NCBI GenBank assembly: GCA_019116025.1
Contig: DXCM01000002.1
Coordinates: 1-33,253 of the forward strand
DNA from: Candidatus Companilactobacillus pullicola
Lineage (GTDB): Bacteria > Bacillota > Bacilli > Lactobacillales > Lactobacillaceae
Reading direction: 5' to 3'
DNA: 33,253 nucleotides
Shown here: positions 17,780-28,306 of the stretch, piece by piece
Numbering within the stretch: the stretch's first letter is position 1
Layout of the letters: each line of letters opens with the position of its first letter
Notes under the pieces: generated by a model
Databases searched by the model: none
The model's input: only the letters and a program-made list of their open reading frames with translations
What the model was told of the DNA's origin: nothing
Made by a program: the position numbers and the translations under genes

Positions 17780-18151
17780 TTACTTTTTACTTTTAACTAA
17801 AACATCACGATCTTCTAGCGTTTTAACAGCAATTTTATACTTTCGTTTAAAATCATCAGGCAGGGAGTTTAAATAATAGTCAAGTGCTATTTCTACAGCC
17901 TGTTTTTGCGATTTAGCAAGTCCTAACATGGTTAATGCTTCCAATTTATTTTTAATGTGATTGTTGATTCGAATATTAGCATAGAATGTAACCCGTTCAA
18001 CAACATTTTTTTTAGATGTTTGTGGTTTCTTATTTTCTTGCGGTTGTTTTTCTTCTAACTCATTTAATGAGAAAGTATTTTCTGGTTTAATATCATGCCC
18101 GCGATCAATTTTCTTAGATTTATTTCGATTAGATCTAACTAAACTACTCAT
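17780..18151 (-). CDS. DUF5388-like plasmid partition DNA-binding protein
   Basis: The product is 123 residues from the ATG at 18151, which follows GGAGG; a TTG six bases upstream is possible. The N-terminal 50 residues are basic and disordered. The C-terminal half (VERVTFYANIRINNHIKNKL, then LGLAKSQKQAVEIALDYYL) reads as a ribbon-helix-helix-like domain. Small proteins of this type, often labelled DUF5388, pair with ParA on lactobacillus plasmids and take the ParB role of binding the centromere. The gene overlaps the parA stop, so the two are coupled. Confidence 0.78.
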   Translation of the reverse strand: MSSLVRSNRNKSKKIDRGHDIKPENTFSLNELEEKQPQENKKPQTSKKNVVERVTFYANIRINNHIKNKLEALTMLGLAKSQKQAVEIALDYYLNSLPDDFKRKYKIAVKTLEDRDVLVKSKK

Positions 18152-18959
18152 TTTCAATTTCCTCCCAACGTTGAATCATTTCTTTAGTTACTTCTTGATA
18201 TACCTCTTGTACTTTTTTATCAAAACGGTCTTTAAATGTAACTCCTGTTAAATCATAACGTTTAATACGTTCCATATTTCTAATAGTTATATCAAAGATA
18301 TTTTCTGTTCCGAAAATTTCATGAGCTGTTTGAAGCGTGCTATTATCAACCGGTGCACCATTTTTTAACAATACAGGCAAAATACCTAGAACCTCTAAAG
18401 TAGGTGCTCCAAATTGATCGATAACCTGCTCTTGAATGTACTTGATAAATGCTTCTGCCCCTTGCAATGATCGTTCTTGCGTTTGAAGAACAATCACACA
18501 GTAATCGGAAGTATATAACGCACTATCAGTTAAAAGAGAAATTGTCGGTGGAATATCAATCAAGATAATATCGTATTTCTCTTTAAGAGCTGATAAAAGA
18601 GAATCAAAATAATGCACCCTATCCACGTAGTTAGTTTTAACTTGTTCCATATAGCGCGGATAAAGTGAGAAATCAGCAGCCGAAGGTAGTAAGTCAAGAT
18701 TTTCTTTAATTGGAATAATAATTTTTTGCAGATTTTTTTCTTTAATCGCAGCCATTAAAGTTTCCTTGAAAGTTACTAAATCGCCGTCAAGATTTTCTTT
18801 TGTCTTTAAATATAAATTTGTTGCGTTGGCTTGCGGATCTAAATCAACTAAAAGTGTTTTGTAACCTTTCTTAGCAAACTCTAAACCGCTTAAAGTACAG
18901 TTTGATGTTTTACCAGTTCCACCCTTAAAGTTGCCAAATGTAATAGTACGACAAACCAT
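18144..18959 (-). CDS. parA: ParA partition ATPase
   Basis: The 271-residue product moves plasmid copies apart before division. The deviant Walker A is FKGGTGKTS near the N-terminus, followed by LLVDLDPQANAT and IILIDIPPTISLL, all typical of ParA/MinD ATPases. It lacks the N-terminal HTH of longer ParA proteins, so it is of the small type and DNA recognition should be by the partner gene. The ATG at 18959 follows AGGAGG. TATAAT on the minus strand (19010-19015) overlaps a TACATGTATACA repeat, suggesting autoregulation. Confidence 0.95.
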   Translation of the reverse strand: MVCRTITFGNFKGGTGKTSNCTLSGLEFAKKGYKTLLVDLDPQANATNLYLKTKENLDGDLVTFKETLMAAIKEKNLQKIIIPIKENLDLLPSAADFSLYPRYMEQVKTNYVDRVHYFDSLLSALKEKYDIILIDIPPTISLLTDSALYTSDYCVIVLQTQERSLQGAEAFIKYIQEQVIDQFGAPTLEVLGILPVLLKNGAPVDNSTLQTAHEIFGTENIFDITIRNMERIKRYDLTGVTFKDRFDKKVQEVYQEVTKEMIQRWEEIENE

Positions 18960-18996: not shown

Positions 18997-19232
18997 ATTA
19001 CATGTATACATTATATTAAACAATAACAAAGAAATTAGTACATTACTACATCATTACATTATTACAATAGTGCATATATACATTATTACATTAACATTTT
19101 ATTACATGTATACACGATAGCCGTGAACATTGATATATCAACAATTAAACCGTGTAATAAAATTAACATTATTACATTTGTTCATTATTACATTAATTCA
19201 TGTATACATTATTACATTAACGCATGTATACA
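18997..19232. repeat. Centromere-like repeat field upstream of parA
   Basis: ATTACATGTATACA occurs at 18997-19010 and 19101-19114, with close versions at 19199-19209 and 19223-19232. CATTATTACATT and variants fill 19041-19068, 19081-19093 and 19165-19220. A 12-bp palindrome TTGATATATCAA lies at 19130-19141. Position and arrangement fit a partition site bound by the DUF5388-like protein. An iteron role in replication is an alternative, although no initiator gene is next to it. Confidence 0.7.
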
Positions 19233-19336
19233 ATTAAATTTTGCGTTGAATAGGGGTTGTAAAAGAATGTCGGGGTTGTTACGATAAGAAATGTAAATTA
19301 ATAGAATATAAAAAAGGGTATAGAAAAAGGCCCTAG

Positions 19337-19432
19337 CTTTCAAATTGAACTACCAATTCAAATTGAAAGGTTCTAATTGATGAACGCTCCATCAATTAAA
19401 ACAGTTACAATCAACTACCAATTGAATGTAAC
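19337..19432. repeat. Three tandem hairpins with 7-base loops
   Basis: Hairpin 1 (19337-19369) has stems CTTTCAA/TTGAAAG and TTGAA/TTCAA split by an A-A mismatch, with loop CTACCAA. Hairpin 2 (19374-19398) has TAATTGATG/CATCAATTA with loop AACGCTC. Hairpin 3 (19404-19432) has GTTACA/TGTAAC and TCAA/TTGA split by an A-A mismatch, again with loop CTACCAA. The shared design cannot be chance. Role unknown: RNA leader, protein site, or single-strand origin. Confidence 0.7.
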
Positions 19433-19453
19433 CTTGCGTCTAGAGTCTTGTTC

Positions 19454-19482
19454 TTGATACATACTATTATAGTATATATGTT
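19454..19482 (+). promoter_or_regulatory. Candidate promoter of the large structured RNA
   Basis: TTGATA (19454-19459), 17 bases, then TATGTT (19477-19482). The spacer contains the near-palindrome ATACTATTATAGTAT, a possible operator. An overlapping TATAGT at 19468 is an alternative -10. The start would fall near 19484-19490, at the 5' strand of the RNA's closing helix. Confidence 0.55.
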
Positions 19483-19483
19483 G

Positions 19484-20175
19484 AGAAGAAGACAAGAGGA
19501 TAGTTTGAAATATCAAACTAATTTAGCTAGACCTTAAGTTTTAATTGAAATCATCGGAAATAAATGAATGGGAGACATCAATTAGAAGATAATTGGTGCC
19601 TCTTTTAATTTATCCCGATGAGATGAAACAAACACCGTTAACAAACATTGAAAGATAGCGGATTTCTAACCGCTAAGACCAAAGATAGAACGTGCCTATC
19701 AGCGTTTCTGTTGTTAGCTGGTAGGCAAGGTCAGTGGGTAAAAGTTGCAAGCCCACACGATCAAAGGATCGAAGCCTAAAGCCCCGATAAAAAGAAGAAA
19801 TCGGAAAGGTAAGGTAAAAAGCAATGGTGGTCAAACTTCGCCACTTAGTTACGACTGGAGTTAGTACAGCAGTAAAACTAAACTTCTTTTGGAAGTTAAT
19901 CGAGTTAAGAAAGCTGTATGAGTTGCTCGTAAGCGGACGGTGGACTTTAGTAGTGCGACAGGGACTAATACAAAGGATATGCGAAAGCTTAACACGTAGG
20001 GCGTGCGAATGCGTGGAAAAAGTATTAGGGTCAGTTGAAATGCTGACTAAGGATAACAACAGTACGTGACACGATGGCTGTACTGCGACGTACAGGTAGA
20101 TAAGTAGCGTAGGTCTTTCCTAGAACTGTTTTAACCAACAGTTAAATAACAGGGAAAGATTGCGCTCTTCTTCTG
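19484..20175 (+). ncRNA. Large ornate non-coding RNA, probable ROOL class
   Basis: About 690 bases contain no credible gene but many helices. The ends pair exactly: AGAAGAAGA (19484-19492) with TCTTCTTCT (20166-20174). Inside are TAGCGG/CCGCTA (19656 and 19670), an 11-bp helix 19693-19703 with 19717-19727, a nested pair CTTTCC/GGAAAG (20115 and 20153) enclosing AACTGTT/AACAGTT (20124 and 20137), and several GNRA-like and purine-rich loops. Base composition is less AT-rich than the flanks, as in structured RNA. Size, complexity and occurrence on a lactobacillus mobile element fit ROOL, a giant RNA class that assembles into RNA-only multimers; its function is unknown. The structured-RNA call is firm, the class call moderate. 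Open frames at 19673-20059 and 19824-20069 are chance. Confidence 0.68.
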
Positions 20176-20280
20176 ACTCCCAGCTCTATACAAGCAAATT
20201 GAATGAATTTATGCAAATTATTTTTTTATTTTTATATGTTTTTGTTGATGTCTTTGAGATTAGGTATATAGTTTAGTTAA

Positions 20281-20347
20281 GTTATAGTTTTTCTATAACC
20301 CATATTAAAATTTTTCCTGAAGTACTAGTTTTTCTAGTACTTTTTTT
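20281..20347 (+). terminator. Two hairpins with TTTTT loops; the second is a Rho-independent terminator
   Basis: GTTATAG-TTTTT-CTATAAC (20281-20299) is followed by AGTACTAG-TTTTT-CTAGTACT (20321-20341), then a T-run. The second hairpin ends transcription coming from the large RNA and shields gadB. Between 20176 and 20459 I see no gene, only these hairpins and the gadB leader. Confidence 0.82.
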
Positions 20348-20459
20348 ATGCAATTATTCTTTACTATTAATGGTATTTATATGTATTTAAGTGTCAGTTG
20401 TAATATGTTGAAAGTGTGATAAAGATATTAATTTTTTTATAAATGAAGGAGGTTATTTT

Positions 20460-27718: not shown

Positions 27719-28306
27719 ATGAGAAATGCTAATAATGGGAAGATTAACGGATATTTAGTATTTGTTAAAGATGAATTTTTTGATTTGGTAAAAGATCCTT
27801 ATTTGAAAATTAATAAAGGAAAAAATCATAAACGTCCACATTATTTTGCTTTTAAAATGCGGGAAAGTAAAGATATGTACTGGGTAGCACCGTTATCAAG
27901 TAAGGTTGAGAAGTTTGATAAAATAGTAGCTAAAAAACAGGCACAAGGAAAGCCAACTGATATTCTATTTAGAACAAAGGTACGGGATAAGGCATCTTAT
28001 GTGTTGTTTGCTGATATGTTTCCAGTAAACGGTAGATATTTATACATTTATAATCGTGATAATCGGCCAGTGGAGATTGATCCGCGAGATAAGAAAAAGG
28101 CATTAAAAGAGGCGCGAAAAGTAGTAACCCTTTTGAATAAAGGAGTTAAATTTACGCGAACTTCGCCAGACGTCAAGCGAATTAAGCAGGTTCAATTAAA
28201 ACAAGAGCAAACGGAACAGCAAGATAATGTTCAGAAAGATTTGGAAGAATTTGTTAAAAAGTATCAACTCCAAGAAAATGAGCAAAATCAAGGCCGTAAG
28301 TTATAA
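27719..28306 (+). CDS. Type III toxin, CptN/ToxN-family endoribonuclease
   Basis: The 195-residue endoRNase is held in check by the RNA repeats just upstream. It shows NHKRPHYFAFKMRESKDMYW and PLSSKVEKF, both typical of CptN/ToxN/AbiQ toxins. The C-terminal 50 residues are charged and helical, longer than the core fold needs. ATG at 27719 follows AAGGAG, 20 bp behind the antitoxin terminator, the standard layout. Known members act as plasmid addiction modules and as phage-abortive systems. The subfamily (CptN rather than ToxN) is my best reading from the motifs and repeat length. Confidence 0.85.
   Translation: MRNANNGKINGYLVFVKDEFFDLVKDPYLKINKGKNHKRPHYFAFKMRESKDMYWVAPLSSKVEKFDKIVAKKQAQGKPTDILFRTKVRDKASYVLFADMFPVNGRYLYIYNRDNRPVEIDPRDKKKALKEARKVVTLLNKGVKFTRTSPDVKRIKQVQLKQEQTEQQDNVQKDLEEFVKKYQLQENEQNQGRKL

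Follow-up and report, generated by a model that had tools for sequence, protein, structure and literature searches.

What does a long noncoding RNA do on a lactobacillus plasmid, set between the partition genes and a decarboxylase gene? The locus that raises this question lies in a stretch of 33,253 nt from Candidatus Companilactobacillus pullicola (GCA_019116025.1, contig DXCM01000002.1, positions 1 to 33,253, forward strand), hereafter the window, in which a preliminary description had seen a large structured RNA, probably ROOL, carried by a conjugative plasmid and flanked by partition genes and gadB. The setting is borne out by genes for ParA, a DUF5388 protein and gadB around the RNA, and by those for a MobQ relaxase and type IV secretion elsewhere in the window. 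Here we consider what this RNA is, how it may be controlled and whether it may drive the replication of its plasmid.

The Locus and Its Carriers

Sequence conservation reaches at least 150 bases 5′ of position 19484, so that the whole element, predicted promoter included, covers about 19257-20200 and is larger than the 19484-20175 first described. Its features and neighbors are as follows.

17780-18157, minus strand: DUF5388 protein, a probable ParB partner judging by its adjacency to ParA
18144-18959, minus strand: ParA-type partition ATPase, upstream of the RNA
19000-19240: ACATTATTACATTA-like, AT-rich repeats separating parA from the RNA, read from the sequence
19257-19285, plus strand: predicted, weak promoter of the structured RNA (TTGTAA, 17, TACGAT), with a start near 19292
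19324-19459, minus strand: predicted antisense RNA of ~135 nt, spanning all three hairpins, with its end at hairpin 1 and a following T run
19337-19369, plus strand: hairpin 1, antisense loop UUGGUAG, read from the sequence in a conserved region
19370-19402, plus strand: hairpin 2, the 5′ arm of which (19371-19382) is the putative antiterminator strand
19404-19432, plus strand: hairpin 3, antisense loop UUGGUAG, likewise read, and gapped in most other lineages
19484-20175, plus strand: main structured noncoding RNA (z -7.1), with a covarying consensus structure in six relatives
19495-19466, minus strand: putative antisense promoter TTGTCT-18-TATAAT (10/12 matches)
19572-19611, plus strand: putative attenuator, an intrinsic-terminator hairpin (19572-19602) with a T-rich tail, its 5′ arm (19576-19587) pairing with 19371-19382
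19921-20055, plus strand: 3′ core, the best conserved part, with homology to GEBRO positions ~231-338
20151-20190, plus strand: conserved 3′ end, AGGGAAAG followed by a C/U-rich tract, in 6/6 elements examined
20319-20350, plus strand: intrinsic terminator between the RNA and gadB (terminator scan)
From 20460: pyridoxal-dependent decarboxylase (gadB), downstream of the RNA

The AT-rich repeats are possibly a partition site or iterons. No sign of circularity was seen in the window contig, and its source assembly consists of 99 contigs with 8.2% contamination, which counts against the idea that the RNA drives a replicon. PLSDB held no close relative of the window plasmid backbone, as matches covered no more than 8% of the transfer region. 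The same plasmid encodes a type III toxin-antitoxin toxin of the CptIN family (27719-28306, plus strand; 125 bits against a cut-off of 90).

Relatives of the RNA occur in several Lactobacillaceae genera and many are plasmid-borne. Besides the window's own genome, blastn found the RNA in three of 120 genomes, one of which (G065) gave only a 38-nt match. A pattern scan of genome contigs returned 11 stretches, of which five were accepted (Lactiplantibacillus plajomi, Ligilactobacillus acidipiscis, Liquorilactobacillus capillatus and two metagenome bins); the other six (L015, L018 and L022-L025) were deemed chance, and the profile matched none of them. In PLSDB, five L. plantarum plasmids carry the whole element and the L. 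amylovorus plasmid pRKC30SC2 a divergent copy. A covariance model of the core, R1, matched eight of 397 Lactobacillaceae genomes (window's own included, one partial), and two of 395 genomes drawn from the order, both known already; with so few matches the element is rare. One new copy (L052) adjoins a ParA-like gene with AT-rich repeats between that gene and the RNA, as in the window, and another (L053) is 5′-truncated in a setting that is not plasmid-like. The element was not found on L. mali unnamed2 nor in the first 25 kb of the 68.5-kb L. hordei plasmid pL11822-1.

The counts given here leave out the 38-nt match, the 5′-truncated copy, a 100-bp piece in Pediococcus pentosaceus (L032) and a partial core (L054); L020 is left out wherever it lacks a 5′ end, L035 and L041 from some of the analyses, and L039 from the attenuator tests, its 5′ region being unalignable. 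Three of these partial or truncated Lactobacillaceae cores, L053 11879-12214 (minus strand), L054 3195-3723 and L032 699-799 (minus strand), have apparently decayed. The contig L017 is filed under a Ureaplasma metagenome bin; its RNA is nearly identical to that of a Gallilactobacillus bin and it is probably misbinned. In genome G072, contig C26 holds a pB21AG01-like segment with the RNA (7078-29786) between two copies of one transposase pair, together with RepA_N and ParA, as if two replicons had fused into a cointegrate. In L. acidipiscis, a RatA antitoxin RNA (L019 64-154, minus strand; 49.6 bits against a cut-off of 49) lies close to the element.

A Conserved Structured RNA

The stretch 19484-20175 holds no credible gene, as had been noted earlier. 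Its longest ORFs (of at least 60 aa) have 81 aa on the plus and 128 aa on the minus strand, and their frames are not kept in relatives: among five of these, the matching frames are broken up or contain stops, and this domain has no ORF longer than 25-44 aa (plus strand) or 31-80 aa (minus strand). The stretch has a G+C fraction of 0.40, higher than the 0.24 and 0.22 of its flanks. The predicted fold has an energy of -208.6 kcal/mol against -162.4 kcal/mol for dinucleotide shuffles, none of 20 being as good; the reverse strand folds equally well (z -7.0), so that folding energy alone leaves the strand of the RNA unsettled.

The structure is seen best in the pattern of substitutions. Within the core alignment of nine sequences, 95.8% of the cells are paired and 13 of 21 pairs have changed on both sides, and none of 500 shuffles reached any of five measures; when the partners were slid, 29-39% remained paired, a control that favours the structure used, as this was taken from one of the nine aligned sequences. 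RNAalifold independently gave nearly identical four core helices. The consensus fold of the six main domains places helices across much of the RNA, with two-sided changes at 6/7, 4/5 and 5/7 pairs of single helices, alongside a few short helices without any such change. Of the two helices that the preliminary description had put forward, the long internal one stands, its 6-bp part (UGCCUA/UAGGCA) being paired in all cells counted among six relatives and changed on both sides at three of six pairs. The 9-bp closing helix is exact in the window (19484-19492 with 20166-20174) and present in the predicted fold, but is missing from the six-relative consensus and thus looks lineage-specific, for which reason we rejected it as a defining feature.

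Judged by this covariation, 19484-20175 is a real, conserved structured RNA. That it should be a remnant of a coding gene or a chance fold is extremely improbable: short ORFs do overlap the RNA, and parts align with relatives at 36-74% translated identity, as expected of conserved DNA, but the stops in the relatives' frames argue against the former and two-sided compensatory changes far in excess of both shuffled and slid controls argue against either.

Not ROOL but a Relative of GEBRO

By size, host and plasmid setting the RNA would fit ROOL or GOLLD, and ROOL, like the L. salivarius lncRNA, is a large structured RNA of lactobacillus plasmids. The covariance-model check named along with the ROOL label nevertheless refutes it. 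No Rfam family was found at gathering score in the whole window; ROOL (RF03087, cut-off 99.1 bits) matched neither the window nor its genome, and neither ROOL nor GOLLD is listed for 19200-20450 at E up to 10, although the ROOL model does work, as one of 11 genomes searched, from the same order, gave a copy of 228 bits. The GOLLD result, at gathering score in the window and at E up to 10 in 19200-20450, is a negative whose model had no positive control. We give practically no credence to either identity. We also rejected a viral home for the element, as two element patterns and one GEBRO pattern had no match in viral contigs, and blastn with the window and L. plajomi elements found nothing in phages.

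The sole significant Rfam match in 19200-20450 is a partial one to GEBRO (RF02988) at 19956-20049 (44.6 bits, E 8e-11), which spans model positions 249-338 of 350 and stays below the full-model cut-off of 284.7 bits. The name GEBRO presumably stands for GC-Enriched, Between Replication Origins, and the RNA reportedly comes from an NAR paper of 2017; we know of no function for it, and among the matches listed in our literature search there was no paper on it, which does not prove absence in print. The conserved 3′ core of GEBRO, a multi-helix domain with a GAAA hairpin and a GUAGGGC segment, is present in the window element. Used as query in PLSDB, the 3′ part of GEBRO found six plasmids, all streptococcal; the four that were fetched (pUA140, pLM7, pSt0 and pST64987) all carry GEBRO over its cut-off, and R1, the model of the lactobacillus core, finds GEBRO in each of them over all 136 positions (54.7-57.7 bits). 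With matches in both directions, the window RNA and GEBRO share a core: on this comparison, ~130 nt at the 3′ end of the element are homologous to GEBRO. Over cut-off, GEBRO occurred in none of 201 Lactobacillaceae genomes and in none of 398 genomes of the phylum, where a weak match (G532, 22.8 bits) was used only for viewing more of the consensus.

The two RNAs have further traits in common. Both occur on plasmids without RepA_N or Rep_3, a forward terminator precedes GEBRO in pUA140 and, by eye, in pST64987, and in these same two plasmids a promoter motif lies upstream on the opposite strand. The window RNA differs in being about twice as long, with other 5′ domains and 44.6 of the 284.7 bits that the full model asks for. 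In S. mutans plasmids, GEBRO sits in the high-G+C region between the putative origins, a region that the published account describes as structure-rich and flanked by a double- and a single-strand origin, both putative (PMC3547324). A long sense-strand hairpin that precedes the RNA is common to two GEBRO plasmids (L037 and L040, at 2164, minus strand) and to L017 (at 3355, minus strand), and its loop, UUGGCG, is a possible U-turn kissing loop.

A Predicted Antisense-Attenuated Leader

Upstream of the main RNA, the element has the makings of a control region. The predicted antisense RNA would begin at a promoter motif that recurs widely: TATAAT is found at the same place on the opposite strand in 10/10 elements, in a search that favours TATAAT, and the antisense lengths to the nearest T run are 95-135 nt in the elements compared. 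The promoter scan as a whole yielded no more promoters than shuffles did. For the forward promoter, the best candidate in the range 55-190 nt 5′ of hairpin 2 has 8/12 matches, tied with others, where the scan needed 9/12; the weakness of the elements' forward promoters counts against a transcript that drives replication.

An intrinsic terminator in the leader was listed by the scan in pB21AG01 (L031) and L017, and its window homologue, unlisted, was read from the sequence. In all eight leaders tested, from four lineages, the 5′ arm of hairpin 2 is the best partner of the terminator's 5′ arm within 235 nt upstream. Between 0 and 5 of 1000 shuffles were as good across the eight leaders, five of which are close relatives of one another (window, 5/1000). 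Duplex energies are -14.0 kcal/mol for the window, -17.0 to -18.9 kcal/mol for the pB21AG01 group and, depending on the pieces taken, -8.0 or -15.2 kcal/mol for L017, and the extension of the antiterminator covaries, with TTC/GAA in the window and CCT/AGG in the pB21AG01 group. Of seven leaders, one (that of pL1277-5) has the antiterminator in its minimum-energy fold; six keep the terminator, which counts against the replication reading. The three GEBRO plasmids tested differ, as this pairing was not found in them (952, 305 and 380 of 1000 shuffles as good).

The arrangement recalls the Inc18 plasmids. In pIP501, a 136-nt RNAIII attenuates the 329-bp leader of the rate-limiting repR (PMC4981023). 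Here, similarly, an antisense RNA of ~135 nt is predicted over a leader of ~320 nt that ends in an intrinsic terminator and offers a competing antiterminator pairing, a likeness to pIP501/pAMbeta1 to which a faint sequence resemblance may be added. Plasmid_RNAIII (RF00235) matched the antisense strand of two of four relatives scanned (L021, 36.6 bits; L016, 35.5 bits; E 0.02-0.04), below its 60-bit cut-off, and was absent among the window's own matches at E up to 10 (19200-20450). The output is what differs, since the pIP501 circuit controls a Rep protein and that of the window a noncoding RNA. We infer that the antisense RNA of ~135 nt exists and acts, and the region looks like a plasmid copy-number circuit whose limited product is an RNA.

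That RNA, rather than a protein, is the product is suggested by what follows it. In the window the RNA is followed, past a terminator, by gadB, in L052 by a UmuC-like gene, in pL1277-5 by a SAP-domain gene and in L017 by a convergent gene; in pB21AG01, NML21 and pLP41P-1 a replication-relaxation gene lies ~500 nt downstream on the same strand. No conserved ORF was found inside the RNA when window ORFs were compared with five relatives. As the downstream gene varies by lineage and no ORF is conserved, the RNA itself looks like the constant output of the circuit. A UmuC/ImpB-like polymerase gene also lies elsewhere on the window plasmid (29818-31305, plus strand), and apparently the same gene directly follows the RNA in L052 (16333-17820, minus strand).

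Replication Genes of the Carriers

Of the ten plasmid records retrieved that carry the element or GEBRO, eight have no RepA_N and no Rep_3 (seven circular, and pLP41P-1, filed as linear). Of the other two, pL1277-5 carries RepA_N and pL125-4, which was outside these searches, has an annotated RepA; both count against replication by the RNA. So do the L. plajomi contig, where RepA_N is present and the element lies between two transposase pairs, the L017 contig, with an ORF2/G2P-type Rep beside the element, and pRKC30SC2, one of the eight, whose annotated "replication initiation factor" resembles MobT (86 bits, cut-off 600). In the L. plajomi and L. capillatus genomes, Rep_3 is found on other contigs. 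The whole genome of the window has neither RepA_N nor Rep_3, and no Rep is among 25 of the 38 Pfam families from 32 of the 41 non-overlapping ORFs of the window contig. MOB-suite, via PLSDB, names no replicon for pB21AG01, pLP41P-1, NML21 unnamed1, pRKC30SC2 and the four streptococcal plasmids that were fetched. A Rep_1 search was silent everywhere, controls included, and is therefore uninformative.

For the L. plantarum plasmid pB21AG01, which has the element but neither RepA_N nor Rep_3, the question has already been raised in print: its authors state that no rep gene was found, that the replication mechanism is yet to be determined and that the relative copy number is 7.60 (PMC7423119). Among 25 of the 34 Pfam families from its 26 ORFs, six of which were also scanned one by one, Replic_Relax is the sole replication name. 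Some related plasmids deserve mention here. The L. mali (L043 33840-35220) and L. hordei (L042 10872-12260) plasmids hold a 1.4-kb noncoding gap beside ParA, between it and a coupling or replication-relaxation gene, with a UUGGUAG-loop hairpin; they have a coupling-protein gene 77% identical to that of pB21AG01 and no RepA_N or Rep_3. The gap could hold another origin RNA; its folding, computed for L. mali, is not significant (z -1.3, 60 shuffles). The Bacillus-plasmid RNA (RF01691) occurs over cut-off on a Pediococcus plasmid (L032 3290-3350) and on an L. amylovorus plasmid (L039 2674-2737).

A Role in Replication?

Computation supports a conserved RNA with a core homologous to GEBRO, a leader terminator with its antiterminator pairing, an antisense promoter motif, and the absence of RepA_N and Rep_3 from most carriers. 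Given a control region that resembles a copy-number circuit and limits an RNA, it is simplest to suppose that replication is limited by this RNA. We lean, by a modest degree of belief, towards an RNA under antisense attenuation that would limit plasmid replication and perhaps prime it, the locus being a copy-control and replication module.

The scheme might work as follows. The forward transcript would start near 19292, and its leader could fold in two ways, the 5′ arm of hairpin 2 either staying within the leader or pairing with that of the terminator (19572-19602). This switch region would be covered by a convergent antisense transcript of ~135 nt. With many plasmid copies there would be much antisense RNA, the terminator would form and transcription would stop; with antisense scarce, the antiterminator would form and an RNA of roughly 900 nt would be completed. 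This RNA, and not a protein, would be the output that limits replication. We infer further that it initiates replication, most likely by acting, like ColE1 RNAII, as a pre-primer whose transcription crosses the origin, where it would be primer or scaffold.

ColE1 RNAII is a pre-primer transcribed across the origin. RNAII and its antisense RNAI resemble the element in having a long structured RNA with an antisense of about three hairpins (here predicted) at the 5′ end, on plasmids without a recognised Rep. The differences are that the window element has no Rfam match to this system, that its hosts are Gram-positive, that its priming is a conjecture, and that its control would work by transcriptional attenuation, in contrast to refolding of the primer in ColE1. 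A likeness between the core and ColE1 RNAII seen by eye was rejected, as it fails in other lineages. Our literature search met no report on Gram-positive ColE1-type replication that fitted most of the search terms, which leaves absence in print unproven.

A bolder version would see in these plasmids a class of Rep-protein-free replicons in the Lactobacillales, the antisense-attenuated RNA being both rate-limiting initiator and primer. The GEBRO RNA of streptococcal plasmids would then work in the same way, and the S. mutans 5.6-kb plasmids would have been wrongly assigned to rolling-circle replication. We offer it tentatively, as a real possibility that we would not on balance expect to hold in full.

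The main rival holds that replication is really initiated by a replication-relaxation-like protein, for which the RNA would be an attenuated leader, or else an accessory structure at the origin. The position of that gene in pB21AG01, NML21 and pLP41P-1, given above, speaks for it, as does ORF1 of the GEBRO plasmid pUA140, which is placed alike; in S. mutans, the literature terms ORF1 a rolling-circle Rep, assigns it a role in stability and calls the plasmids pT181-like (PMC3547324). The streptococcal ORF termed Rep in print resembles an ORF of pST64987 (E 4e-10) and, faintly, the pB21AG01 protein (E 0.024). No such gene follows the element in the window, L052, L017, L034 or L039, however, which argues against the protein as a general initiator. 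Furthermore, pUA140 ORF1 matches no Pfam family at E 0.01, the pB21AG01 protein is nearest, weakly, to MobC-type relaxation proteins (25.9 bits in Pfam, 20.2 bits in NCBIfam), and a simple leader would need no such long conserved structure. We regard this rival as unlikely, though one to be taken seriously.

Still more doubtful, in our judgment, is that the RNA is an accessory one like ROOL, involved in plasmid assembly or maintenance under antisense control, with Rep encoded elsewhere or unrecognised. Some carriers do have a Rep, and deletion of the lncRNA of L. salivarius, a large plasmid RNA, cut megaplasmid copy number, possibly indirectly (PMC5643018). Against this stand the eight of ten records that have neither RepA_N nor Rep_3, together with the nature of the circuit itself. 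To our knowledge, every known case of pIP501-type antisense attenuation serves to limit a replication initiator.

An RNA that limits and perhaps primes replication would be a testable answer to the open question of how Rep-less plasmids such as pB21AG01 replicate, would suggest a function for GEBRO, and would show the antisense circuit of pIP501 wired to an RNA output. Typing based on Rep misses plasmids of this kind, and a compact Rep-free replicon would serve as a vector part for food-grade lactobacilli.
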